This document shows, one piece after another, positions 19,512 through 30,820 of a stretch of DNA of 64,000 bases (positions within the stretch are counted from its first letter, which is position 1; the number at the start of each line of letters is the position of its first letter). The stretch is from Achromobacter aloeverae. GTDB lineage: Bacteria > Pseudomonadota > Gammaproteobacteria > Burkholderiales > Burkholderiaceae_B. The stretch covers positions 806,001 to 870,000 of the forward strand of contig NZ_PYAL01000002.1 in NCBI RefSeq assembly GCF_004121055.1. The letters run 5' to 3'. The position numbers were made by a program, and so were the translations under genes. The notes under the pieces were generated by a model. The model was not told the DNA's origin. It searched no databases and saw only the letters and a list, made by a program, of their open reading frames with translations.

Positions 19512-20486
19512 CTATTCGCCGCGTCCCAGCAAACCCTCGAACCTGCGGGTGATTCCTTCCGCATCCATCCCGAATTCCCGGAACAGATACGGCGTGGTGG
19601 CGCCGTAGCCGAAGGCATCGGGCACGCCCACGCGGGCAAAGCGCAGGGCGCAGCCCGCTTCGGCGATCTGTTCCGCCAGCGCGGAGCCCAGGCCGCCGAC
19701 GATGGAATGGTTCTCCACGGTCAAGACGGTACCGGCCGCGCGCGCCAGCGCCAGCAGGTCGGCGCTGAGCGGCTTGAGCCGCGTCACCGCGACCACGCCG
19801 ACGTGGATCCCCCGCGCGGCCAGCCGTTCGGCGGCGTCGTGCGCCTCGGGTACGCCAAGTCCAGATGCCAGTATCAATCCATCGGCGCCTTCCCGCAGCC
19901 GCGTGTAGCCGCGGCCGGCCGAGGGTGGCGCGACGGCGCCGGCGGCCTGCGGCTTGGCCCGCGCCAGGCGCAGGTAGACCGGCCCGTCGTGCGCCACGGC
20001 TTCGGCCACGGCGTCCTCGACCTGGCCCGGCGCCGGTTCCAGGATGCGCATATTGGGCAGGGCACGCATCATCGCGATATCGTCGATGGCCTGGTGGCTC
20101 ACGCCCAGCAGGGTATCGAGCCCAGGGATGAATCCCACCACCTTGGCGTTCAGGCGCGGATAGGCGATCTGCATGGCCACCTGGTCGTAGGCCCGCCGCG
20201 TGGCGAAAACGCTGAAGGTGTGCACGAAGGGAATGCGGCCGCAGCGGGCCATGCCGCCCGCCATGCCCATCATGTTGGCCTCGGCGATGCCGACCTGGAA
20301 GAACTGGTCGGGCAGGGCGTCGCGCAGCAGGTCGGTCTCGGTCGGGCCGCTGAGGTCGGCCGTGAGGGCGACGATGCGCGGGTCGCGCCGGGCGGCGGCC
20401 AGCAGGGCCGACCCATAGGGCTTGGCCGCCACGCCCAGGGCGGAGCGGTCGGTAAAGTCATTGACGGTCAGCGTGGGCGAGTTCAT
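19512..20486 (-). CDS. Split transketolase, C-terminal subunit
   Basis: A 324-residue protein matching the pyrimidine-binding and C-terminal domains of transketolase/DXS. FFQVGIAEANMMGMAGGMA contains the glutamate that activates ThDP, and FVHTFSVFATRRAYDQV follows; the C-terminal domain spans about 190-320. Start ATG 20486 overlaps the stop of the N-terminal subunit by four bases (ATGA), and GGAGG precedes it, so the two are translationally coupled. Together they would form one enzyme that moves a two-carbon ketol group. Split transketolases of this kind usually serve special catabolic routes rather than the pentose phosphate pathway. Confidence 0.88.
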   Translation of the reverse strand: MNSPTLTVNDFTDRSALGVAAKPYGSALLAAARRDPRIVALTADLSGPTETDLLRDALPDQFFQVGIAEANMMGMAGGMARCGRIPFVHTFSVFATRRAYDQVAMQIAYPRLNAKVVGFIPGLDTLLGVSHQAIDDIAMMRALPNMRILEPAPGQVEDAVAEAVAHDGPVYLRLARAKPQAAGAVAPPSAGRGYTRLREGADGLILASGLGVPEAHDAAERLAARGIHVGVVAVTRLKPLSADLLALARAAGTVLTVENHSIVGGLGSALAEQIAEAGCALRFARVGVPDAFGYGATTPYLFREFGMDAEGITRRFEGLLGRGE

Positions 20487-21337
20487 GCGCGGACCTCCTG
20501 TGCGTCCAGTTCTTCCAGGGCCTTGGTCGCCGTCTCGGGCGGCAGGCGCAGGTTGTGGCCCAGTATTCCTTCGAGCGAGGGCGCGCCCTTGCCGACCAGG
20601 GTGCGGGCGATGATGCAATGCGGCTGCCCGGGCGTCGCGCGTACGCGGGCCAGCATCGCGAGGATGGCGTCCATATCGTTGCCGTCGATGTCCTCGACGC
20701 GCCAGCCGAAGGCGCGCCACTTGTCGGCCAAGGGCTCATGCGGCTGCACCTGGTCGATATGGCCCTCGACCTGCATGTCGTTTGCATCGATGACCAGGCA
20801 AAGGTTGTCCAGCCGCCAGTTGCCCGCGGCCATGGCCGCTTCCCAGACCTGGCCTTCCTGCAGTTCGCCATCGCCCAGCATGACGAAGACGCGGCTGTCG
20901 CTGCCCGTGCGCTTGAGCGTGGCGGCCATGCCGACGCCCACCGAGAGTCCCTGGCCCAGGGACCCGCACGTGGCCTCTATCATCGGGCCGAGCCGTTCGG
21001 AGGCGTTGATCTCCAGCGGGGAGCCGTCGTCGCAATAGCTGTCGAGCAGGGCCGGCGGGAAATAGCCGCGCGCCGCCAACGTCGCGTAGAAGATGGCGGT
21101 GTTGTGCGCGGTGGACAGGATGAAGCGGTCGCGTTCCGGCCAGTCGGGCGTCTGCGGGCGCTGGCGAAGTTCGGCGAAGTACAGGGCCGCGAACAGGTCC
21201 GCGGCGCCCAGGCCTTGCTGTACGTAGCCCTGGCCGGTGCGCGCCACCATGCGCACGACCTGCTTGCGCAGGGCGAGCGCGATGGCGCGCAGTTCACCGA
21301 CGGCGCGCGTGGGTTCGAAACGAAGTTCGGTATGCAT
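20483..21337 (-). CDS. Split transketolase, N-terminal (ThDP-binding) subunit
   Basis: A 284-residue protein equivalent to the PP domain of transketolase. MLGDGELQEGQVWEA is the ThDP/Mg motif, ILSTAHNTAIFYATLA holds the conserved histidine, and GSLGQGLSVGVGMA is the usual glycine-rich loop. ATG 21337 with GAGGAAA upstream gives the proper family start; the frame extends to 21430 only as artefact. It lies 13 bases after the class III aminotransferase gene and overlaps the C-terminal subunit by four bases, so aminotransferase, N-subunit and C-subunit form one operon. A repressor site (22655-22681) precedes that operon. Confidence 0.88.
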   Translation of the reverse strand: MHTELRFEPTRAVGELRAIALALRKQVVRMVARTGQGYVQQGLGAADLFAALYFAELRQRPQTPDWPERDRFILSTAHNTAIFYATLAARGYFPPALLDSYCDDGSPLEINASERLGPMIEATCGSLGQGLSVGVGMAATLKRTGSDSRVFVMLGDGELQEGQVWEAAMAAGNWRLDNLCLVIDANDMQVEGHIDQVQPHEPLADKWRAFGWRVEDIDGNDMDAILAMLARVRATPGQPHCIIARTLVGKGAPSLEGILGHNLRLPPETATKALEELDAQEVRA

Positions 21338-21350
21338 GGGACGGGTTTCC

Positions 21351-22619
21351 TCACAGATGCGCCGCGAGGCGGGCGCAGGCGTGGTCGGTGACTTGCAATG
21401 CGAGATCGATGTCCTGGACCGTGTGCGCAAGACTCAGGAACATGTTGTGCTTGTGGTGCAGATATACGCCGTGCTTGATGGCCTCGGCGGCGAAATACGC
21501 GCCCTTGGCGTAATCCGGGTCGTCCTCGAACAGTACCGAAGGCAGTTGCGCGGGGCCGCTCTGCCGGATGGCCAGGCCGTGGCGTTGCGCCTGCCGGGCC
21601 AGGCCGTCGCGCAAACGCTGTCCCACTTGTTCGAAGTGCCGGACGGCATGGTTGTTTTCCAGGACGTCCAGGGTGGCCAGCGCGGCGGCCATGGCGACGC
21701 CGCCCATCCAGAACGAACCCGTGACGTAGACTTCCTGCGCGGCCTGGCGGAAGGCCTCGTTGCCGGTGACGGCCGCCAGGGCGTAGCCGTTCGCGATGGC
21801 CTTGCTCCAGGCCGACAGGTCGGGGCGCACGCCCAGGGCCTCCCAGCTGCCTTGCATGGAAAGGCGAAAGCCGGCGCGCACCTCGTCAAGGATCAGGGCC
21901 GCCCCTTTGCGATCGCACAAGGCACGTGCCGTCCGCGCGAACGCGGCGGTGGGCAGTTCCTGCGGCTGTCCCATATCGTGGCGGAAGGCGGAAACAAGGA
22001 TGGCGGCCAAGTCGTCGCCGGCCTCGCGCACGGCCGCTTCCAGGCTCTCGACATCGTTGTAGCGGAAGTAGATGAGGTGGGCGCGGTCTTCCACCGTGAC
22101 GCCCGCCAGCGATGGCGAGCACCAGGGCACGGCGCCGTGGTAGGCGCCCTTGGCCAGTACGATCTTGCGTTTGCGGGTGCCCGCGCGCGCCATGGTCACC
22201 GCCGTGGTGGTCGCGTCCGTGCCGTTTTTCTGGAAGACGGCCCAGTCGGCGTGTGGCAAGAGCCCCACCAGCCGTTCGGCAAGCTCCACCAGCCGCGCGC
22301 TGGGGCCGTTCATGCAATCGCCCAGCGCCGCCTGGCGCCGCGCCGCCTCTTCGACAGCGGGGTGCTGGTGGCCGACGATGATGGGTCCCCAACTGCACAT
22401 GAAATCCAGGTATTCGCGCCCGTCGACGTCCCACAAGCGGCAGCCTTGGGCGCGCTCGTAGAACTGCGGATAGCCCGGCGGCAGCAGCTTGGCGTTCAGG
22501 TGGCCATACATGCCGCCGGGAATGACGCGGGCCGCGCGCCGGCGCAACGCTGCCTCGTCGAGAACACCACTACTGCCAGGATCCGCTGCCGGTAAAAAGG
22601 CGGGTGTAAGGGCGGTCAT
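21351..22619 (-). CDS. Class III PLP aminotransferase/aminomutase (glutamate-1-semialdehyde aminomutase-like)
   Basis: A 422-residue PLP enzyme beginning at ATG 22619 after AGGAAGG. ALILDEVRAGFR carries the Asp (about 245) that binds the PLP ring nitrogen, and WSKAIANGYALAA carries the Schiff-base lysine (about 273). QKNGTDATTTAV is the phosphate-binding loop region, close to the SGTEAT of HemL. It is unlikely to be the housekeeping HemL, because it sits first in a regulated operon with a split transketolase. A role as an amino-compound transaminase or aminomutase in catabolism is inferred. A 27-bp palindrome lies 36 bases upstream of the start. Confidence 0.85.
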   Translation of the reverse strand: MTALTPAFLPAADPGSSGVLDEAALRRRAARVIPGGMYGHLNAKLLPPGYPQFYERAQGCRLWDVDGREYLDFMCSWGPIIVGHQHPAVEEAARRQAALGDCMNGPSARLVELAERLVGLLPHADWAVFQKNGTDATTTAVTMARAGTRKRKIVLAKGAYHGAVPWCSPSLAGVTVEDRAHLIYFRYNDVESLEAAVREAGDDLAAILVSAFRHDMGQPQELPTAAFARTARALCDRKGAALILDEVRAGFRLSMQGSWEALGVRPDLSAWSKAIANGYALAAVTGNEAFRQAAQEVYVTGSFWMGGVAMAAALATLDVLENNHAVRHFEQVGQRLRDGLARQAQRHGLAIRQSGPAQLPSVLFEDDPDYAKGAYFAAEAIKHGVYLHHKHNMFLSLAHTVQDIDLALQVTDHACARLAAHL

Positions 22620-22654
22620 ATTCCTTCCTGTCTGTGCGCTGCGGTTGTTTATGC

Positions 22655-22681
22655 GAACACGATACATGATATATGATGTTC
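22655..22681. promoter_or_regulatory. 27-bp palindromic operator, copy 1 (upstream of aminotransferase-transketolase operon)
   Basis: The site begins GAACACGATA and ends ATATATGATGTTC, with the middle ATG between, so its ends are inverted (GAACA/TGTTC). Reverse-complementing the site at 23619-23645 gives the same sequence at 23 of 27 positions. It lies 36 bases before ATG 22619. The GntR/FCD protein encoded next door is the obvious binder. Confidence 0.7.
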
Positions 22682-22724
22682 TCGTAAACGGGAAAGCACC
22701 GGGTAGAAACCCGCCCCGCGATCC

Positions 22725-23468
22725 TTACTTGCGCGCGGTCTTGCGCGGCGCGCGCCTGACTGATTTGGTCGAGGATTTCTTGACGGGCTCGACGTCCTTG
22801 CCGTCGATGCTGGCCAGGTAGTTGATGAACTGCTCGCCGCCCTCGATCAGGTCCTGCTCGACCGCGGTCTTCAGCGCCTGCGGGTTGCCGGCCTTGATCG
22901 CCGCGATGATCTGCTGGTGCTGGTGGTCGCCGTGGTAGGTCGGATGGCCGTGCGGATAGAGGTAGTTCAGCAGCGGCCCCGCCTGTATCCACAGGCGTTC
23001 GAGGATGTCCGTCAACTGGCCCATGCCGGAACGGCGATAGAGGAGGAAGTGGAAATCGAAATTCGACTGCACCGCCTGCGGATAGTCCTTTTCCTGTTCG
23101 GCGCGGACCAGCGTGGCGTGGGTGCGTTCGAGGTCGGCGATGAAATCGGCGTCGACGTGGGGCAGGGCCTCGACGGCGGCCATGGGTTCGAGCAGCAGGC
23201 GCAGGCGCCGGATCTCCATGTATTCGGCCAGCGACAGGCGGCGGGTGAGGAAGTAATAGCCCGCCTTCATCTCGATGGCGCCGTCGTTGGCCAGCAGCAG
23301 GATGGCCTCGCGCACGGGCGTTTCGCTGACTTCCAGGTCGGCGGCGAGCTCCTTGATCTTCAGGCGTTCGCCGGGCTGGAAGCGGCCGGACATGAGGCGG
23401 TCGCGCAGGGTGTGGTAGACCTGGCCGGTCAGGCTCGTGCGGGTGACGGACGGTTGCTCGATTGCCAT
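22725..23468 (-). CDS. GntR family regulator, FCD (FadR-like) type
   Basis: A 247-residue regulator. The N-terminal GntR winged helix spans about 12-75: VYHTLRDRLMSGRFQPGERL, then ELAADLEVSETPVREAILLL. An all-helical FCD ligand domain follows (about 85-220), with RRLRLLLEPMAA and HFLLYRRSG. The C-terminus is a basic tail (KKSSTKSVRRAPRKTARK), unusual for the family and perhaps DNA-binding. Start ATG 23468 is chosen from the domain; the open frame further upstream has no good start. It lies between two operons that carry near-identical 27-bp palindromes, so it probably represses both and responds to a substrate or intermediate. Confidence 0.92.
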   Translation of the reverse strand: MAIEQPSVTRTSLTGQVYHTLRDRLMSGRFQPGERLKIKELAADLEVSETPVREAILLLANDGAIEMKAGYYFLTRRLSLAEYMEIRRLRLLLEPMAAVEALPHVDADFIADLERTHATLVRAEQEKDYPQAVQSNFDFHFLLYRRSGMGQLTDILERLWIQAGPLLNYLYPHGHPTYHGDHQHQQIIAAIKAGNPQALKTAVEQDLIEGGEQFINYLASIDGKDVEPVKKSSTKSVRRAPRKTARK

Positions 23469-23618
23469 GGTGTCTGGAAGGTGGGACGTGGTCGTATTGT
23501 AGGGAGGATGGACGCAGCCGCCGGGCGACCGCCGCGATGCGTCGCCGCGCGCGGATCGTGTCCGCGCCGGGCTGGCCGCTTCCCCTAGTAGAACTACTGA
23601 TATCGGGATAGGTTGTAA

Positions 23619-23645
23619 AAACACCATATATTATATATCGTGTTC
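23619..23645. promoter_or_regulatory. 27-bp palindromic operator, copy 2 (upstream of ABC importer operon)
   Basis: On the plus strand the site contains ACACCATATATTATATATCG and ends GTGTTC. Its reverse complement agrees with the site at 22655-22681 at 23 of 27 positions. It sits 32 bases before ATG 23678 in the divergent region between the GntR gene and the importer operon. The AT-rich centre stands out in GC-rich surroundings. Confidence 0.7.
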
Positions 23646-23677
23646 AGCATTCGTCCTGAACCGCAAGGGGTCCAAGC

Positions 23678-25225
23678 ATGGTTTTCAAACGCACACTGAT
23701 GGTCGCGGCGCTGCTCGGCGCGATGTCCCTGGCTACGGCGGCCCCCGCGGCGGAGGATGCGCCGAAGAAAGGCGGAACGCTGGTCTATGCCGACCTCTCG
23801 GGCCCCAACACCCTGGATCCGCAGGTCGCCGCCAGCATGGTGGACCTGGAAGTCGTCCATCACCTGTATGAAGGCCTGGTGGCCATGGATGCCAAGTACA
23901 ACGCCAAGCCCATGCTGGCGCGCGAGGCCAAGGCCAGCGACGACAACAAGACCTATACCTTCATCCTGCGCAAGGGCGTCAAGTTCCACAACGGCAAGGT
24001 CATGACATCGGCCGACGTCAAGGCAACGTTCGAACGCTATGCGCGCGTCAGTCCCAACAAGTCCGTGCTGGACGACGTGGCGGGCTATGAGACGCCGGAT
24101 GCGGACACCTTCGTCATCCACCTCAAGCATCCCAATACGGTCTTCCTGGACGTGCTGAAGACGCCGGTCTACCCCTTCGTCATCCTGCCGGCCGAGGAAA
24201 AGGACAAGCCCGCGCGCGGTGTCGACGTCATCGGCACCGGCCCGTTCAAGCTGGGGCAGTGGGTCAAGGACAGCTACCTGACCTTGCAGCGCTTCGACGG
24301 CTACACGCCCGACGACAGCGCCAGCGGACCGGACGGCCTGGCCGGCAAGCGTACGGCCTATGTGGACACGGTGCGCTTCAATTTCGTGCCGGAGGCCAAT
24401 GCCCGCGTCGCCGCCATGCAGACGGGCGAGGCGGTGTTCACCGCGGCCATTCCGCCCGAGCTGCTCGCGCGCCTGAAGTCGATGAAGCACCTGGAGTCGT
24501 TCACGACGTATCCCGCCTGCCAGCAGTACTTCATCGTCAATACCCAGCAGCCGCCCACCGACAAGACCGAAGTGCGGCAGGCCATACGCACGGCGGTGCA
24601 CGTGGACGACATCATGAAAGTGATAGGCGCGTCGCGCAAGAATCACTCGATGGTGTATCCGGACGGCCCTTACTACGGGGGCGAGGTCACCGACGGCCGC
24701 TACAACCAGAACGATCCGAAGAAGGCTGCGGAACTGCTCAAGCAGGCGGGCTACCAGAACGAGCCCATCGTGCTGCAGACCAACAACAACTACGACTACA
24801 TGCGCGACGCCTTGCTGGTGCTGTCGGAACAGTTGAAGAAGGGCGGCATGAACGCCAAGATGGACATCACCGACTGGACCACCAACGCCTCCAACATGCA
24901 GTCCGGCAAGGGCAACTGGAATGTGTCGACCACCACGTTCTGCGCCAATCCGCTGCTGGGCCCGCAACAGTGGCAGGCCATGATCTACAACTTCCCGCAC
25001 GTCAAGAACGACAAGGTGCTGGACGACGCCTACGATGCGTTCTACAAGACGCCCGACCTGGCCGGCCGCAAGGCCGCGTGGCTGACCATCGAGCAGCGTG
25101 TGCTCGACCAGGCCTACATGATCAAGGTGGCCGACCGCGGCAATGTCCAGGTGATCAATACCCGCAAGGCGGGCGGCTTCGAGCCGTACTACCTGAATCA
25201 TTTCTGGAACGTCTGGCTCAAGTAA
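23678..25225 (+). CDS. ABC importer substrate-binding protein, peptide/nickel/opine (SBP_bac_5) family
   Basis: A 515-residue periplasmic receptor starting at ATG 23678 with AAGGGG upstream. Signal peptide about 1-25 (AAPAA cleavage), then KKGGTLVYADLSGPNTLDPQ, the usual mature start of family 5 receptors. Also typical are HLYEGLVAMDA, the segment LRKGVKFHNGKVMTSADVKA (which surrounds the family signature) and VIGTGPFKLGQW. It captures a small peptide-like or other solute and delivers it to the permease pair encoded 13 bases downstream. It is first in a six-gene operon (23678-30820) that ends with a dimethylformamidase-like enzyme, so its ligand may be an amide. Confidence 0.93.
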   Translation: MVFKRTLMVAALLGAMSLATAAPAAEDAPKKGGTLVYADLSGPNTLDPQVAASMVDLEVVHHLYEGLVAMDAKYNAKPMLAREAKASDDNKTYTFILRKGVKFHNGKVMTSADVKATFERYARVSPNKSVLDDVAGYETPDADTFVIHLKHPNTVFLDVLKTPVYPFVILPAEEKDKPARGVDVIGTGPFKLGQWVKDSYLTLQRFDGYTPDDSASGPDGLAGKRTAYVDTVRFNFVPEANARVAAMQTGEAVFTAAIPPELLARLKSMKHLESFTTYPACQQYFIVNTQQPPTDKTEVRQAIRTAVHVDDIMKVIGASRKNHSMVYPDGPYYGGEVTDGRYNQNDPKKAAELLKQAGYQNEPIVLQTNNNYDYMRDALLVLSEQLKKGGMNAKMDITDWTTNASNMQSGKGNWNVSTTTFCANPLLGPQQWQAMIYNFPHVKNDKVLDDAYDAFYKTPDLAGRKAAWLTIEQRVLDQAYMIKVADRGNVQVINTRKAGGFEPYYLNHFWNVWLK

Positions 25226-25238
25226 GGATAAGCGGCCC

Positions 25239-26186
25239 ATGTCCCGTATCGTGTCCGCGCGGATCGCCCAGGCGCTGCCTGTGATGTTGATCGTGGCGAT
25301 CCTCACCTTCTTCCTGATGCACATGCTGCCCGGCGACCCGGCGGTCATCATCGCCGGCGACCAGGCCGGGCCGGAGGCCGTGGCGGCGATCCGCCACAGC
25401 CTGGGCCTGGACCGGCCCCTGCCGGAACAGCTCTGGCTGTGGCTGACGCACCTGGCGCACGGCAATTTCGGCGATTCGCTGGTGCTCAACCAGCCGGTGT
25501 TGCAGGCGGTCACCGAGCGCCTGCCGGTGACCCTGTCGCTGGCGGCCGTGGCCTTCGTCATCACCGTGCCCGTGGGCGTGGGCCTGGGCATCGTGGCGGC
25601 ATTCTGGCGCAACTCGTGGATCGATTCCGCCGTGATGGGCTTCGCCCTGCTGGGCGTGTCGGTGCCCAGTTTCTGGGTCGGCACCATCTCGGTGATTCTT
25701 TTCAGCGTCAACCTGGGGTGGCTGCCGACGGCGGGCTATGTGCCGATCGCCGAAGGCGGGGTGGGGGAGTGGTTCGCCTCGCTGATCCAGCCGGCGGTGG
25801 TGCTGGCCTTGTTCCAGATCGGCTTCCTGGCGCGCATGACAAGGTCCGAAATGCTGGAAATCCTCGACCAGGATTTCGTACGCACGGCCCGCGCCAAGGG
25901 CGTATCGGAGTTCGCCACGGTGGGCAAGCACGCTTTCCGCAATACGCTGGTGTCGGTGGTGACGGTGGGCGGCTACATCCTGAGCCTGCTTATCGGCGGA
26001 TCGGTGGTGGTCGAGCAGGTGTTCGCGCTGCCCGGCGTGGGACGGCTGCTGGTGCAGGCCATCATGTCGCGCGACTACCCGACGGTGCAGGGCACGATGC
26101 TGCTGCTGGGCTTCGCTTTCGTATTGATCAACGTGTTGATCGACGTGCTCTATACCTATCTGGACCCACGGGTGCGCTATGACTGA
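25239..26186 (+). CDS. ABC importer permease, DppB-type
   Basis: A 315-residue inner-membrane permease with six predicted helices. The N-terminus [20 protein letters not shown] is the first helix; [11 protein letters not shown] is the family's periplasmic-loop marker. The EAA loop that contacts the ATPases is [20 protein letters not shown], and [20 protein letters not shown] near the end is typical of DppB/OppB. Its stop overlaps the next gene by eight bases, so translation of the two permeases is coupled. Confidence 0.93.
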
Positions 26187-27087
26187 CATCGCAACGGACC
26201 TCGCCATCGACAAGGCCGCGGCCCAGGGCGATATCGCGCCCCCGCAGCCGCGTACGCTGGTGCTCAAGCGGCTGTGGCGGCATCGCTCCTTCCGTATCGG
26301 CGCGATCGTCCTGCTGCTGATCGTCGGCACCGCGCTGCTGGCGCCCTGGATCAGCTCGGGCGACCCGCTGACCATGCAGATGGTGAATCGCTTCCATGCG
26401 CCATCCGGCGAGTTCCCCTTCGGCGCCGACCAGTATGGACGCGACGTCTATACGCGGGTGCTGTACGGCGCGCGGCTGTCGCTGTGGATCGGGTTCAGCG
26501 TGGCCATCCTGTCGGCCATCGGCGGCGCGGTGGTGGGCATGGCGGCCGGCTATTTCTCGCGCCTCGATTCCATCCTGATGCGCTTCATGGACGCCTTGCT
26601 GGCGTTCCCCGCCATCCTGCTGGCCATCGGCATCAATGCGGTGCTGGGACCGCAGGTGCACAGCGTCATCGTCGCTCTGTCCTGTGCGTACGTGCCGCGT
26701 ACCGCCCGCATCGTGCGCGCGTCGGTCCTGGTCATCCGGCGGCTGGACTACGTCGACGCGGCGCGCATCAGCGGCGCCGGCGCCTGGCGCATCCTGACGC
26801 GGCACATCCTGCCCAATACGCTGGCGCCCTTGCTGGTGTCGCTGACCTTCGTGTTCGCCTACGCCATCCTGGCGGAGGCCACGCTCAGCTACCTGGGCAT
26901 CGGCCCACCGCCGCCCACGCCCAGCTGGGGCAACATTATTTCCGAAGGCCGCGACTACGCGGTGGAGTCGTGGTGGATCATGCTCTTTCCCGGCCTGGCC
27001 ATCAGCCTGTCGGCGCTGGCCATCAACCTCCTGGGCGATGGGTTGCGCGACGTCCTGGACCCGCGCTTGAAAGTGGAGGGCAACTGA
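26179..27087 (+). CDS. ABC importer permease, DppC-type
   Basis: A 302-residue permease partner of the preceding gene. A cytoplasmic N-terminus (about 1-45) is followed by six helices. [20 protein letters not shown] is the classic DppC/OppC N-terminal marker, and the EAA loop includes [20 protein letters not shown]. The region [19 protein letters not shown] is also characteristic. It ends one base before the ATPase gene begins. The pair forms the translocation channel for the solute bound by the 23678-25225 receptor. Confidence 0.93.
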
Positions 27088-28086
27088 ATGGCCCTGTTGG
27101 AAGTCGAGAACCTGAACGTGGAGTTCCGCGGCGACGGCGGCTGGACCCGCGCCGTCAGCGATGTGGGTTTTTCCCTGGACGAGAATGCGTCGCTGGGCAT
27201 CGTGGGCGAATCGGGCAGCGGCAAGAGCGTGTGCGCGCTGTCCATCCTGCGGCTGCATCACCGGCGCATGTCGCGCATGCCGGGGTCGCGCATCCGCTAT
27301 GACGGCCGCGACCTGTTGACGCTGTCCAACCGCGAACTGCGCCAGGTGCGCGGCGCGGATATCGCGATGATCTTCCAGGATCCCATGACATCGCTGAATC
27401 CGGTGCTGACCATCGCCGACCAGATCGGCGAGACGCTGCGCATCCACCAGGGCCTGGATCGCGCGGCGGCGCGCCGCCGAGCCGTGGAGTTGCTGGACAT
27501 GGTGCGCATTCCGGACGCGGCGCGGCGGGTGGATGAGTATCCGCATCGCCTGTCGGGCGGCATGCGCCAGCGGGTGATGATCGCCATGGCCATCGCCTGC
27601 CGTCCGCGCCTGCTGATCGCCGACGAGCCGACCACGGCGCTGGACGTGACCATCCAGGCGCAGATCATGCAGCTGCTGCGCGAGTTGCAGGCAGAGATCG
27701 GCATGTCCGTCATCCTGATTTCCCACGACCTGGGCCTGGTCGCCGAATTCGTGCAGCGCGTCGTGGTGATGTACGCCGGGCATGTGGTGGAGGAGGCCGA
27801 CGCCGCCGATATCTTCACGCGGCCGCTGCATCCCTATACCGAAGGCCTGTTGCGCGCGATTCCCAAGCTGGACCACGACGCCCGCCGCTTGCCCGCGATA
27901 CCGGGCAACATCCCGGCGGCGGGCAACTGGCCGCAAGGCTGTCGCTTCAGTCCCCGCTGCGCGCTCGCGGAACCCGCCTGCCGGGCCGCGCCGGTGCCCC
28001 TGGATGCGCTGGCCACCGGCCGGCGCCTGCGCTGCCCGCCGCGGCGCGCCATCGCGCGGGACGGCATGCCGGAGGCTGTCGTATGA
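27088..28086 (+). CDS. ABC importer ATP-binding protein, DppD-type
   Basis: A 332-residue ATPase. Walker A GESGSGKS at 40-47, the signature LSGGMRQRVMIAMAIA, Walker B RLLIADEPTTALD and the switch histidine in LISHDLGLV are all intact. The C-terminal oligopeptide-transporter extension contains the cysteine cluster region (CRFSPRCALAEPAC), which in related ATPases can hold an iron-sulfur centre. It directly follows the permease gene and overlaps the second ATPase gene by four bases (ATGA). Confidence 0.93.
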   Translation: MALLEVENLNVEFRGDGGWTRAVSDVGFSLDENASLGIVGESGSGKSVCALSILRLHHRRMSRMPGSRIRYDGRDLLTLSNRELRQVRGADIAMIFQDPMTSLNPVLTIADQIGETLRIHQGLDRAAARRRAVELLDMVRIPDAARRVDEYPHRLSGGMRQRVMIAMAIACRPRLLIADEPTTALDVTIQAQIMQLLRELQAEIGMSVILISHDLGLVAEFVQRVVVMYAGHVVEEADAADIFTRPLHPYTEGLLRAIPKLDHDARRLPAIPGNIPAAGNWPQGCRFSPRCALAEPACRAAPVPLDALATGRRLRCPPRRAIARDGMPEAVV

Positions 28087-29144
28087 GCGCGCTCGGCCTA
28101 TCGAAGCCCCCGGAAGGAGGCGTGCAAGGACAGTTTGGCGCCCCGGCCAATCAACCACCCATCGTACAGGTGGACGGCCTGACGCGCGAGTTCAGGCTGG
28201 GGAGTAGCGCCGGCCATGCCGTCCTGCGCGCCGTCGACAACGTCAGTTTCCGGATCGGCCTGGGCGAGACCCTGGGCCTGGTCGGCGAATCCGGCTCCGG
28301 CAAGTCCACCATAGGTCGCATGATGATAGGCCTGTTGCCGCCATCGAGCGGCGACATCCGCCTGTTCGGCAAATCGATCGCGGGCAAGCCCGGACAGGCC
28401 AACCTGAAAGCCGTGCGCCATCGCCTGCAGTTCGTCTTCCAGGATCCATATTCGTCCTTGAATCCTCGCATGCGCGTAGGCGACGCCGTGGCCGAGCCCA
28501 TCGACATTGCCGGCAAGCTGGACGGCAAGGCGCGCGCGCAACGCGTGGCCGAACTCTTCGAAATGGTGGGCCTGCCGCCGTCCTTCGCCGGCCGCTTTCC
28601 GCATGAATTCTCCGGCGGCCAGCGCCAGCGTATCGTCATCGCGCGCGCCCTGGCGCTGAACCCCGACTTCGTCGTCTGCGACGAGGCCGTGGCGTCGCTG
28701 GACGTGTCCATGCAGGCGCAGATCGTCAATCTGTTGATGGACCTGCAGGACAAGCTGGGCCTGAGCTACCTGTTCATCGCGCACGACCTGGCGGTGGTGC
28801 GGGCGATCTCGCAGCGGGTGGCGGTGCTGTACGCGGGCGAGGTGGTGGAGATCGGCGAAAAGCGCCGGCTCTATGCCTGGCCGCGCCATCCCTACACGCA
28901 GGCGCTGCTCAAGGCGGTGCCGCGCCCCGAGGTCGGCCGGCCGCGCCAGCCTCCCATCAAGGGCGAGCTGCTGAGCGTGCTGGACAAGCCCACGGGTTGC
29001 AGCCTGGCGCCGCGCTGCCCGCACGCCGTCGAACGCTGCCGCGCGGAAAAACCGCGACTGCGCGAAGTCGAGGCGGGCTGGCAGGTCGCTTGCCACTTCC
29101 ATGAAACCATCAGCCCGGCTGCGCCGGGCATCACGTCCCTTTAA
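28083..29144 (+). CDS. ABC importer ATP-binding protein, DppF-type
   Basis: A 353-residue ATPase. Walker A GESGSGKS at 68-75, the signature FSGGQRQRIVIARALA, Walker B region FVVCDEAVASLD and switch histidine in FIAHDLAVV are present. Note that Walker B ends with CDEAV rather than the more common DEPV/DEPT; the catalytic glutamate is kept. The C-terminal extension again has a cysteine cluster (CSLAPRCPHAVERC). An N-terminal extension of about 28 residues precedes the domain. It overlaps the DppD-type gene by four bases and precedes the dimethylformamidase-like gene by 14. Confidence 0.93.
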   Translation: MSALGLSKPPEGGVQGQFGAPANQPPIVQVDGLTREFRLGSSAGHAVLRAVDNVSFRIGLGETLGLVGESGSGKSTIGRMMIGLLPPSSGDIRLFGKSIAGKPGQANLKAVRHRLQFVFQDPYSSLNPRMRVGDAVAEPIDIAGKLDGKARAQRVAELFEMVGLPPSFAGRFPHEFSGGQRQRIVIARALALNPDFVVCDEAVASLDVSMQAQIVNLLMDLQDKLGLSYLFIAHDLAVVRAISQRVAVLYAGEVVEIGEKRRLYAWPRHPYTQALLKAVPRPEVGRPRQPPIKGELLSVLDKPTGCSLAPRCPHAVERCRAEKPRLREVEAGWQVACHFHETISPAAPGITSL

Positions 29145-29158
29145 AAGGAATCCGTCTC

Positions 29159-30820
29159 ATGTCTCGCGCTCGTCCCGAGTTCGGTGCCTTCAACCAGCGT
29201 CCCCGTCCCACCAGCGTCATGCATCCGGACCAGGGATGGCATGTCTCGCACTGGTACGAGGCGCCGCGCGAGGATCCCGCGCTGCCCGAAGTCTACGTGT
29301 ACACGAACGCGATGTCGTACGCGCCGGGCGAGACGGTGGTCTTCCACGGCTCCAGCACGGCGCCGCGCTTCAGCCTGGAAATCTGGCGCGACGGCGTCAC
29401 GCCGGACTGCGTGCACGCGCGCGACGATGTGCCGGGCGAGTTCGTCGCCATGCCGCCGACCGCGTATCGCGATGGCTGCGGCTGGCCGGAAGTGCATCGG
29501 TGGACGGTGCCGACGGATGCGGCCAGCGGTTTCTATCGCATTGCGGCGTGGTGCGAGCGGGCCGACGGGTCCCGTTTCCTGCAGCATCACTTCTTCGTCG
29601 TGCGCCCCGCGGCGGGCCAGCCCAGGCAGCCGGGCCGTTTCCTGTTCCTGTTGTCGACGTCGACGTGGACCGCCTATAACGATTGGGGAGGCGCCAATTC
29701 GTATGACGGCATCGACGGTCCGAACGGCAAGCAGTTCTCGCCGACCCTGAGCATCCTGCGCCCCTGGACGCGCGGGCTGGTGTGGCTGCCGCCCGGCGCG
29801 CCTCGCCTGTGCGATCCGCTGCCGCGCGGCGCGGGCGAGGCGCCCCGGTATCCGACCAAGGAATGGGCCTACACCAATGGCTATGCCCAGTACTACGCGT
29901 CGTCGGGCTGGGCGCAGTTCGAACGCCATTTCGCGGTATGGGCTGAACGCGAGGGCTACGCCTTCGATACCATCACGCAGACCGACCTGCATTACCGCCC
30001 AGAACTGCTCGATGCCTACAGCGCCGTGGTGATCGCCGGCCATGACGAATACTGGACCCGCCAGATGCGCGAGGCCATCGACCGCTATGTGGACGGCGGC
30101 GGCCGCGTGGCGCGTTTCGCCGGCAACTTCATGTGGCAGATCCGGTTGGAGGAGGAGGGCGCGCGCCAGGTCTGCTACAAGGCGCGGGCCGACACGGAAG
30201 ACCCGGTCGCCGGGGGCCCCGATAAGACCTACCTGACGGGGGCCTGGGAGCAGCAGTCCGTGAACTGGCCCGGCGCGACCACGTTCGGCGTCAATGGCTG
30301 GCGCGGCACCTATTCGTCCTGGGGCGGTTTCGCGCCGCGCGCGAGTCGCGGGTTCACGGTGTACCGGCCGCGCCATTGGGCCTTCGCCGGCCTGGACATG
30401 CACTACGGCGACGTGCTTGGCGCGGAGGCCGGCATCTTCGCCTACGAAGTGGATGGCGTGGAGTACACGTTCCGCCATGGCCTGCCGTATCCGACCCACG
30501 AGGATGGGGTGCCCATGAATACGGAGATCCTGGCGTTGTCGCCGGCCGTGCACGACGAGGAAATGCACGATGGCGAGGGCTTCCGGTACTACATCAAGGC
30601 CGACGGGGCGGCGCGCCGCACCAGGGCCTTGTGCGGCGACGACAGCCCGGAGGCGATCGAGCGCTACAAGTACGGCTGCGGGGTCATCGTCTCGTTTACC
30701 CGTGGCAAGGGCGAGGTTTTCACCGCCGGCAGCTGCGAGTGGGTCATGGGATTGACCAGGAACTGTCCCTATACGCAGGGGGTCACGCGCAACGTGCTGA
30801 ATCGCTTCCTGGCGGAGTAG
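29159..30820 (+). CDS. N,N-dimethylformamidase large-subunit-like protein (DMFA2_C family)
   Basis: A 553-residue protein resembling the C-terminal part of the large subunit of N,N-dimethylformamidase, an iron enzyme that hydrolyses the amide bond of dimethylformamide. Recognisable segments are LLSTSTWTAYNDWGGANSYD, the Rossmann-like AVVIAGHDEYWTRQMREAID with DGGGRVARFAGNFMWQIR, and RPRHWAFAGLDMHYGD. It lacks the N-terminal portion of the 760-residue DmfA2, and no small-subunit gene is nearby, so it is probably a stand-alone enzyme with another substrate. No signal peptide: cytoplasmic. As the last gene of the ABC importer operon it likely processes the imported compound. The iron ligands could not be mapped by eye. 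Confidence 0.75.
   Translation: MSRARPEFGAFNQRPRPTSVMHPDQGWHVSHWYEAPREDPALPEVYVYTNAMSYAPGETVVFHGSSTAPRFSLEIWRDGVTPDCVHARDDVPGEFVAMPPTAYRDGCGWPEVHRWTVPTDAASGFYRIAAWCERADGSRFLQHHFFVVRPAAGQPRQPGRFLFLLSTSTWTAYNDWGGANSYDGIDGPNGKQFSPTLSILRPWTRGLVWLPPGAPRLCDPLPRGAGEAPRYPTKEWAYTNGYAQYYASSGWAQFERHFAVWAEREGYAFDTITQTDLHYRPELLDAYSAVVIAGHDEYWTRQMREAIDRYVDGGGRVARFAGNFMWQIRLEEEGARQVCYKARADTEDPVAGGPDKTYLTGAWEQQSVNWPGATTFGVNGWRGTYSSWGGFAPRASRGFTVYRPRHWAFAGLDMHYGDVLGAEAGIFAYEVDGVEYTFRHGLPYPTHEDGVPMNTEILALSPAVHDEEMHDGEGFRYYIKADGAARRTRALCGDDSPEAIERYKYGCGVIVSFTRGKGEVFTAGSCEWVMGLTRNCPYTQGVTRNVLNRFLAE

Follow-up and report, generated by a model that had tools for sequence, protein, structure and literature searches.

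Two near-identical 27-bp sites in the window (the whole 64,000-nucleotide stretch of Achromobacter aloeverae DNA that was analysed) flank a gene for a GntR/FCD protein, and the explanation that best fits the whole locus, held here with considerable confidence, is that they are local operators, of a non-canonical, McbR-like kind, through which this protein would repress the gene runs on both sides of it. The gene order is the C-terminal half of a transketolase, its N-terminal half, an aminotransferase (- strand), site A, gntR (- strand), site B and a transporter run (+ strand). Sites A and B are very probably the switches of the regulator encoded between them because they are near-identical, partly palindromic, flank its gene and are kept in the relatives examined. 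A shared operator of the GntR/FCD protein had been proposed in a sequence-only reading, and comparison supports that proposal in the conservation of the sites, their uniqueness and the restriction of their core. The locus appears ordinary in kind, with a local regulator and two operators, and unusual in the spelling of the operators and the loss of an arginine. What is new is an ATAYAT-N-ATATAT core in an FCD-like layout and the presence of Glu49 in place of the usual Arg.

Operator A lies at 22655..22681 on the + strand (GAACACGATACATGATATATGATGTTC) and has the core ATACAT-G-ATATAT at 22662-22674, while operator B lies at 23619..23645 on the - strand (GAACACGATATATAATATATGGTGTTT) and has the core ATATAT-A-ATATAT. 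Both are near-palindromes (10 of 13 pairs match across the 27 bp at site A and 11 of 13 at site B), and common to both is the 13-bp core ATAYAT-N-ATATAT in the 6-1-6 layout, with outer arms AACA/TGTT. The GAACACG arm faces the downstream gene at each site. This shared orientation and the near-palindromy of each site are additions to the sequence-only reading, whose coordinates and letters, site B being inverted, are exact and whose count of 23 identical positions in 27 was reproduced on recounting. Its estimate of about 32-36 bases to the start codons corresponds to measured distances of 35 bp between site A and the aminotransferase ATG (22619) and of 32 bp between site B and the ATG of the solute-binding protein (23678), and the gene that it placed between the sites is indeed there (22725..23468, - strand). 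The start of gntR is set at 23468 by alignment of orthologues; therefore, site B is 150 bp from it. Alternative ATGs at 22667 and 23627 fall inside the sites and are probably not used as starts, since the aminotransferase start (22619) comes with a Shine-Dalgarno-like GACAGGAAGG and that of gntR is fixed at 23468 by its orthologues.

Nowhere else in the genome do close copies of the sites occur at unrelated loci. A 26-base pattern built from both, with up to three mismatches, has two matches in the window versus none in 100 shuffles, and in the 6,492,157-bp genome it finds only sites A and B (the reversed-pattern control finds 0). The scan of the genome that had been suggested, with a matrix of the two sites, was carried out as pattern and profile scans, and both rank only sites A and B as close matches, in agreement with the earlier view that such matches are unlikely by chance and against its own counter-case of many unrelated copies. 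A looser 23-base pattern (up to three mismatches) has two extra places in the genome, both at the locus of a paralogous regulator. In a genome scan with a 27-position profile made from 20 orthologous sites, including sites A and B themselves, the window sites have E-values of 9.2e-7 and 1.0e-6; the next matches, at C6:475832 (E 0.10) and C6:480807 (E 2.6), are the sites of that paralogous regulator, no others have E<=10, and no further regulon members of this GntR were found in the genome. Among 268 family genomes, all matches to the 23-base pattern with at most one mismatch are at this gntR locus, except for one at a TumE-type toxin gene (G030:C1:64920). With up to two mismatches, the pattern occurs in 15 of 268 genomes versus 20 of 268 for the reversed-pattern control, and the extra matches in other genomes at this threshold are near chance. 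Of the matches away from FCD genes, those at L121 and L122 have as neighbours a zinc-type dehydrogenase and a short gene that matches no Pfam family. The match at L130:1499-1525 (ACACCATATCTAATATATGGTGT), palindrome-like and similar to the operator, lies where a TumE-type toxin gene (PF20126) begins, and a look through its 3-kb stretch revealed no FCD gene.

Failure of the sites to persist at orthologous loci had also been named as grounds for abandoning the proposal; in the aligned orthologous regions both sites are present at 10 of 10 loci. These loci are the window and nine others, of which eight are orthologues from a scan of named genomes and one (L016) is from a family search; L012-L015 and L017 repeat L001, L002, L004, L006 and L008, with identical sites and identities, and are not counted again. 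GntR is 72-95% identical to the window protein in the eight orthologues and 75% in L016. Mean pairwise identity is 0.87 within site A versus 0.40 and 0.36 in its left and right flanks, and 0.86 within site B versus 0.30 and 0.46. Spacing between the sites ranges from 876 to 1109 bp (964 bp in the window). The cores are intact at eight of the 10 loci, with one change per core in L002 and L005, so that site A reads ATACAT in eight and ATACAG in two while site B reads ATATAT in eight and TTATAT in two; L008 and L016 have weaker arms. A distant homologue (L018, 40% identical) is without a site. Regulators with the sequence SETPVREA are rare, being encoded in 10 of the 268 family genomes, and in all 10 there are two core matches (at most one mismatch) around the gene; these genomes were equated with L001-L008 and L016 by their identical site sequences. 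Recent copying of one site from the other, without function, would account for 23 identical positions in 27 but is hardly credible, being contradicted by the retention of a distinct core variant at each site across the 10 loci while the flanks diverged. The likeness of A and B is therefore old and maintained.

Conservation also bears on whether the sites are AT-rich promoter elements or nucleoid-protein sites instead of a specific operator. They are rich in A/T (18 of 27 and 20 of 27 positions in a window of 67.5% GC), and there may be a -10 element that overlaps site A; nevertheless, this explanation is very unlikely, as conservation covers most of the 27 bp, including the arms that contain C and G, the sites are near-palindromic, and general promoters would give many copies whereas the genome has two. 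The candidate promoter of the aminotransferase run (22668..22695, - strand) consists of TTTCCC, a 16-nt spacer and TATATC, the last within operator A, and is a weak candidate. It rests on a GCTTT(A/C/G)C block found in eight of 10 orthologues, 9 bp from site A in six and 8 bp in two; L003 and L007 do not have the block. A consensus promoter/terminator scan of 22550-23750 found nothing, and there is no clear -35 at site B. The gntR gene has a conserved TAMAAT of its own, which in the window lies 27 bp before the start of the gene.

The GntR/FCD regulator has a GntR winged-helix domain (PF00392, 59.1 bits with a cut-off of 27) and an FCD domain (PF07729, 75.6 bits with a cut-off of 24.3), and its predicted model (mean pLDDT 80.4) has six C-terminal helices of at least 11 residues plus one of 4. 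The winged helix, FCD domain and six C-terminal helices place it in the FCD subfamily (VanR group). In the model, Glu49 is the first residue of the recognition helix. This is position 38 of the helix-turn-helix in the numbering of PMC4494728, equal to Arg45 of FadR, and Glu occupies it in the window protein and 9 of 9 orthologues in place of the canonical FadR-type Arg. Among the 56 FCD proteins of the genome, the residue at position 38 is Arg in 50, Lys in 2 and Glu, Ile, Gln and Leu in 1 each. The core (at most one mismatch) is present at two of these 56 FCD loci, the window gntR and the regulator at C6:480004, which are the Glu and the Ile proteins; about 1.5 kb on each side of 55 FCD domains was covered, with 19 kb for L053, and the near core site of the L053 locus is still detected with the usual flank (L110). 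The two proteins are reciprocal best matches in a comparison of all 56 (33% identity, 113 bits). Their next-best relative is in both cases L046 (86 bits to the window protein and 111 bits to the Ile-type, close to the 113 bits that the window protein itself scores against the Ile-type), which has Leu at position 38 and is without the core, as is the Gln-type paralogue. Directly observed are the two sites, the fact that they are unique and conserved, and the confinement of the core to two related regulators of the 56. The link of the sites to this GntR protein is indirect but fairly specific because the core occurs at 2 of 56 FCD loci and those two proteins are mutual best matches without the usual Arg.

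A further alternative is that the sites belong to another transcription factor encoded elsewhere and that the GntR gene is a mere neighbour. The region does hold a second conserved block (GATATCAGTAGTTCTACT, 23587..23604, - strand, defined by alignment of 10 orthologues) between operator B and gntR, and more factors may act here. The block is near SATATCnGTAGTTCTACY, includes the inverted repeat GTAG-TT-CTAC and is conserved at 10 of 10 loci, with deviations in L002 and L005 (GATATGGGGAGTTCTAC); it was not found elsewhere in the genome at up to two mismatches. It is possibly the site of another regulator and might bind an activator. Ownership of sites A and B by a different factor is nonetheless unlikely, given that 10 of 10 loci have both the sites and the gene, that close copies are absent elsewhere in the genome and that this core recurs beside the gene of the best-matching paralogue.

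As putative operators of the GntR protein, the sites resemble those of other FCD regulators in layout and differ from them in spelling. The consensus given for the FadR subfamily is TKGT-N3-ACMA, with Arg-G contacts and with BioR and NanR as exceptions (PMC4494728). In the Atu1419 operator (ATGTATACAT), Arg45 is reported to read an essential G, and a G-to-A change abolished binding (PMC7797058). The AlkR operator (ATTGTCAGACAAT) is described as having a 13-bp footprint with 6-nt arms and a 1-nt centre (PMC12042122), a 6-1-6 layout that is also that of the window cores. Canonical FadR/VanR operators and the window sites alike are palindromic and close to start codons. However, TKGT-N3-ACMA boxes are absent from core A (ATACATGATATAT) and core B (ATATATAATATAT), which thus are not canonical FadR-type operators. 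When aligned by their centres with canonical operators, the window cores have T/A or C/G in place of the G/C pair that Arg45 reads and A in place of the adjoining T, and the G-reading Arg of FadR and Atu1419 is Glu in the window GntR. Acidic residues are said to tend to prefer C (PMC4494728), and Glu49 may contact an operator base in keeping with this preference. DhdR, an FCD repressor of the related bacterium Achromobacter denitrificans whose ligand is reported to be D-2-hydroxyglutarate (PMC8651671), has a structure that is among the fold matches of the window GntR. Its footprinted operator (GTTATCAGATAAC) is a 13-bp inverted repeat in the same report and is also without that G, so an operator lacking the G is already known in this bacterial family; its half-site, GTTATC, is unlike the window core. 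Searches of PMC text for the core spellings returned no paper on a GntR regulator, judged by title and the start of the abstract. ATATAT joined to GntR was not found among the papers listed, a stricter search returned none, and among those listed for the features of this locus none has a title or opening abstract lines that deal with this regulator.

The Ile-type paralogue (G000:C6:480004-480720; L053, L110) carries SITPVREA and has, like the window GntR, an ATATAT-type core, ATATAT-S-ATATAT, and two sites at its locus. These operators (ATATATSATATAT) are at L053:6838 and L053:11813 (G000:C6:475832 and 480807). Its arms differ from those of the window sites, with AATATAS on one side in most loci, and its neighbours encode a periplasmic binding protein (PF13458) and a short-chain dehydrogenase (PF13561). 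Of 48 SITPVREA loci listed, 30 were examined. All 24 of the examined loci in the Ile-type orthologue group have ATATAT-S-ATATAT (at most one mismatch), and the core is absent in all six others (L095, L097, L100, L101, L116 and L117). A one-residue code, in which any non-Arg residue would go with ATATAT, was considered and rejected on account of these six of 30 loci and the Gln and Leu paralogues without the core. The residue at position 38 alone is not predictive of the core because the six SITPVREA loci and L046 are without it. In another genus, a Val-type FCD regulator (L123) and a divergent gene of the dihydrodipicolinate-synthase family have between them tandem overlapping sites at 1500-1550, the first of which (GAACACGATATACGATATATTGTGC) is very similar to the operator. 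A second Val-type group (L137-L141 and L149) has GATGCATCATATWT, which differs from the core by one or two mismatches, and L136 of the same group has no such site.

In a tree of 79 of 113 FCD sequences, made by a quick method with no bootstrap and with the recognition-helix columns left in, the Glu, Ile and Val groups and Escherichia coli McbR form one 23-row clade (SH-aLRT 99) in which position 38 is never Arg or Lys. The next wider clade has 26 rows (SH-aLRT 91), and the core (at most one mismatch) is absent at 11 of these 26, E. coli mcbR/mcbA among them. ATATAT half-sites lie beside Glu, Ile and some Val members of the McbR-like clade. McbR (YncC; FCD, VanR group; PDB 4p9f) is the closest solved relative of the window protein by sequence (E 1e-25) and its best PDB fold match (32% identity, TM 0.75/0.86), and like the window GntR it is without Arg at position 38 (SITPVREA). 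The best NCBIfam match of the window protein is the McbR model NF008504 at 111 bits, compared with 453 for E. coli McbR; since this is below the equivalog cut-off of 225, the protein is McbR-like and not McbR. An ATATAT motif seems to be part of the ChIP-seq result for K-12 McbR, and McbR is said to bind very many AT-rich sites (PMC13343897); by that account the number of sites differs, since the window regulator has two. A simple extension of the core to McbR is disfavoured: a scan of the regions upstream of E. coli mcbR and mcbA found no core at up to two mismatches, and the extension therefore rests on one sentence in PMC13343897. We lean somewhat toward the idea that the McbR-like FCD branch has dropped the Arg-G contact and reads ATATAT/ATACAT in an unchanged 6-1-6 layout, with Glu, Ile or Val and other residues replacing the contact.

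For an FCD regulator about which the searches returned no paper, the locus offers a well-defined operator pair and a likely regulon. It points to a second mode of DNA recognition in a large family of bacterial regulators; such operators would escape motif searches that rely on the GT...AC consensus. Which base replaces the G read by Arg is a testable prediction and, if the reading is true, this locus, whose two operators are unique and conserved, would allow a clean test of the second mode.

The first gene behind operator A encodes a class-III aminotransferase (21351..22619, - strand; PF00202), present at 9 of 9 other orthologous loci. It is followed by the two halves of a split transketolase gene on the same strand: the N-terminal half (20483..21337; PF00456 in a scan of 20483-21331, with the start set from the sequence) and the C-terminal half (19512..20486; PF02779 and PF02780). 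Behind operator B, in the window genome, the first gene of the + strand run encodes a peptide-type (family 5) solute-binding protein (23678..25225; PF00496). Next are ABC permease 1 (25239..26186; below the NCBIfam cut-off, best match Opp2B with 310.8 of 350 bits), ABC permease 2 (26179..27087; PF00528), ABC ATPase 1 (27088..28086; below the NCBIfam cut-off, best match a dipeptide ABC ATPase) and ABC ATPase 2 (28083..29144; PF00005 and PF08352). The conserved run ends with a protein like the beta subunit of N,N-dimethylformamidase (29159..30820; PF20254), whose gene is kept at 7 of 7 orthologous loci read that far. At 8 of 8 orthologous loci outside the genus of the window, the first gene found after site B encodes an acylase of the penicillin-amidase family (PF01804 in L003 at L003:1560-3881, - strand; tblastn in 8 of 8, namely L002-L008 and L164 for L016). 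No acylase was found between site B and the solute-binding protein (23646-23678) in the window or in L001, where the solute-binding protein comes directly after site B. Operator B was retained although the first downstream gene differs. Together with the peptide-type transporter, the acylase and the amidase-like protein suggest that an amide is taken up and hydrolysed.

Ligand-relieved repression is the usual FCD scheme, and by analogy it may apply at this locus. Binding, repression and an inducer, as well as the base contacts considered above, are inferences. A GntR dimer would bind each near-palindrome through the ATAYAT-N-ATATAT core and the AACA/TGTT outer arms. At site A it would probably cover the -10 of the aminotransferase-transketolase run and block the promoter, and at site B it would block the promoter region of the transporter run; the 964-bp spacing might be compatible with looping. 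An imported amide- or peptide-like compound, or its product, would presumably release GntR, and the genes for uptake and breakdown would be turned on together. The split transketolase (19512-21337, - strand), the class-III aminotransferase and the amidase-like genes form a conserved locus that is probably catabolic.
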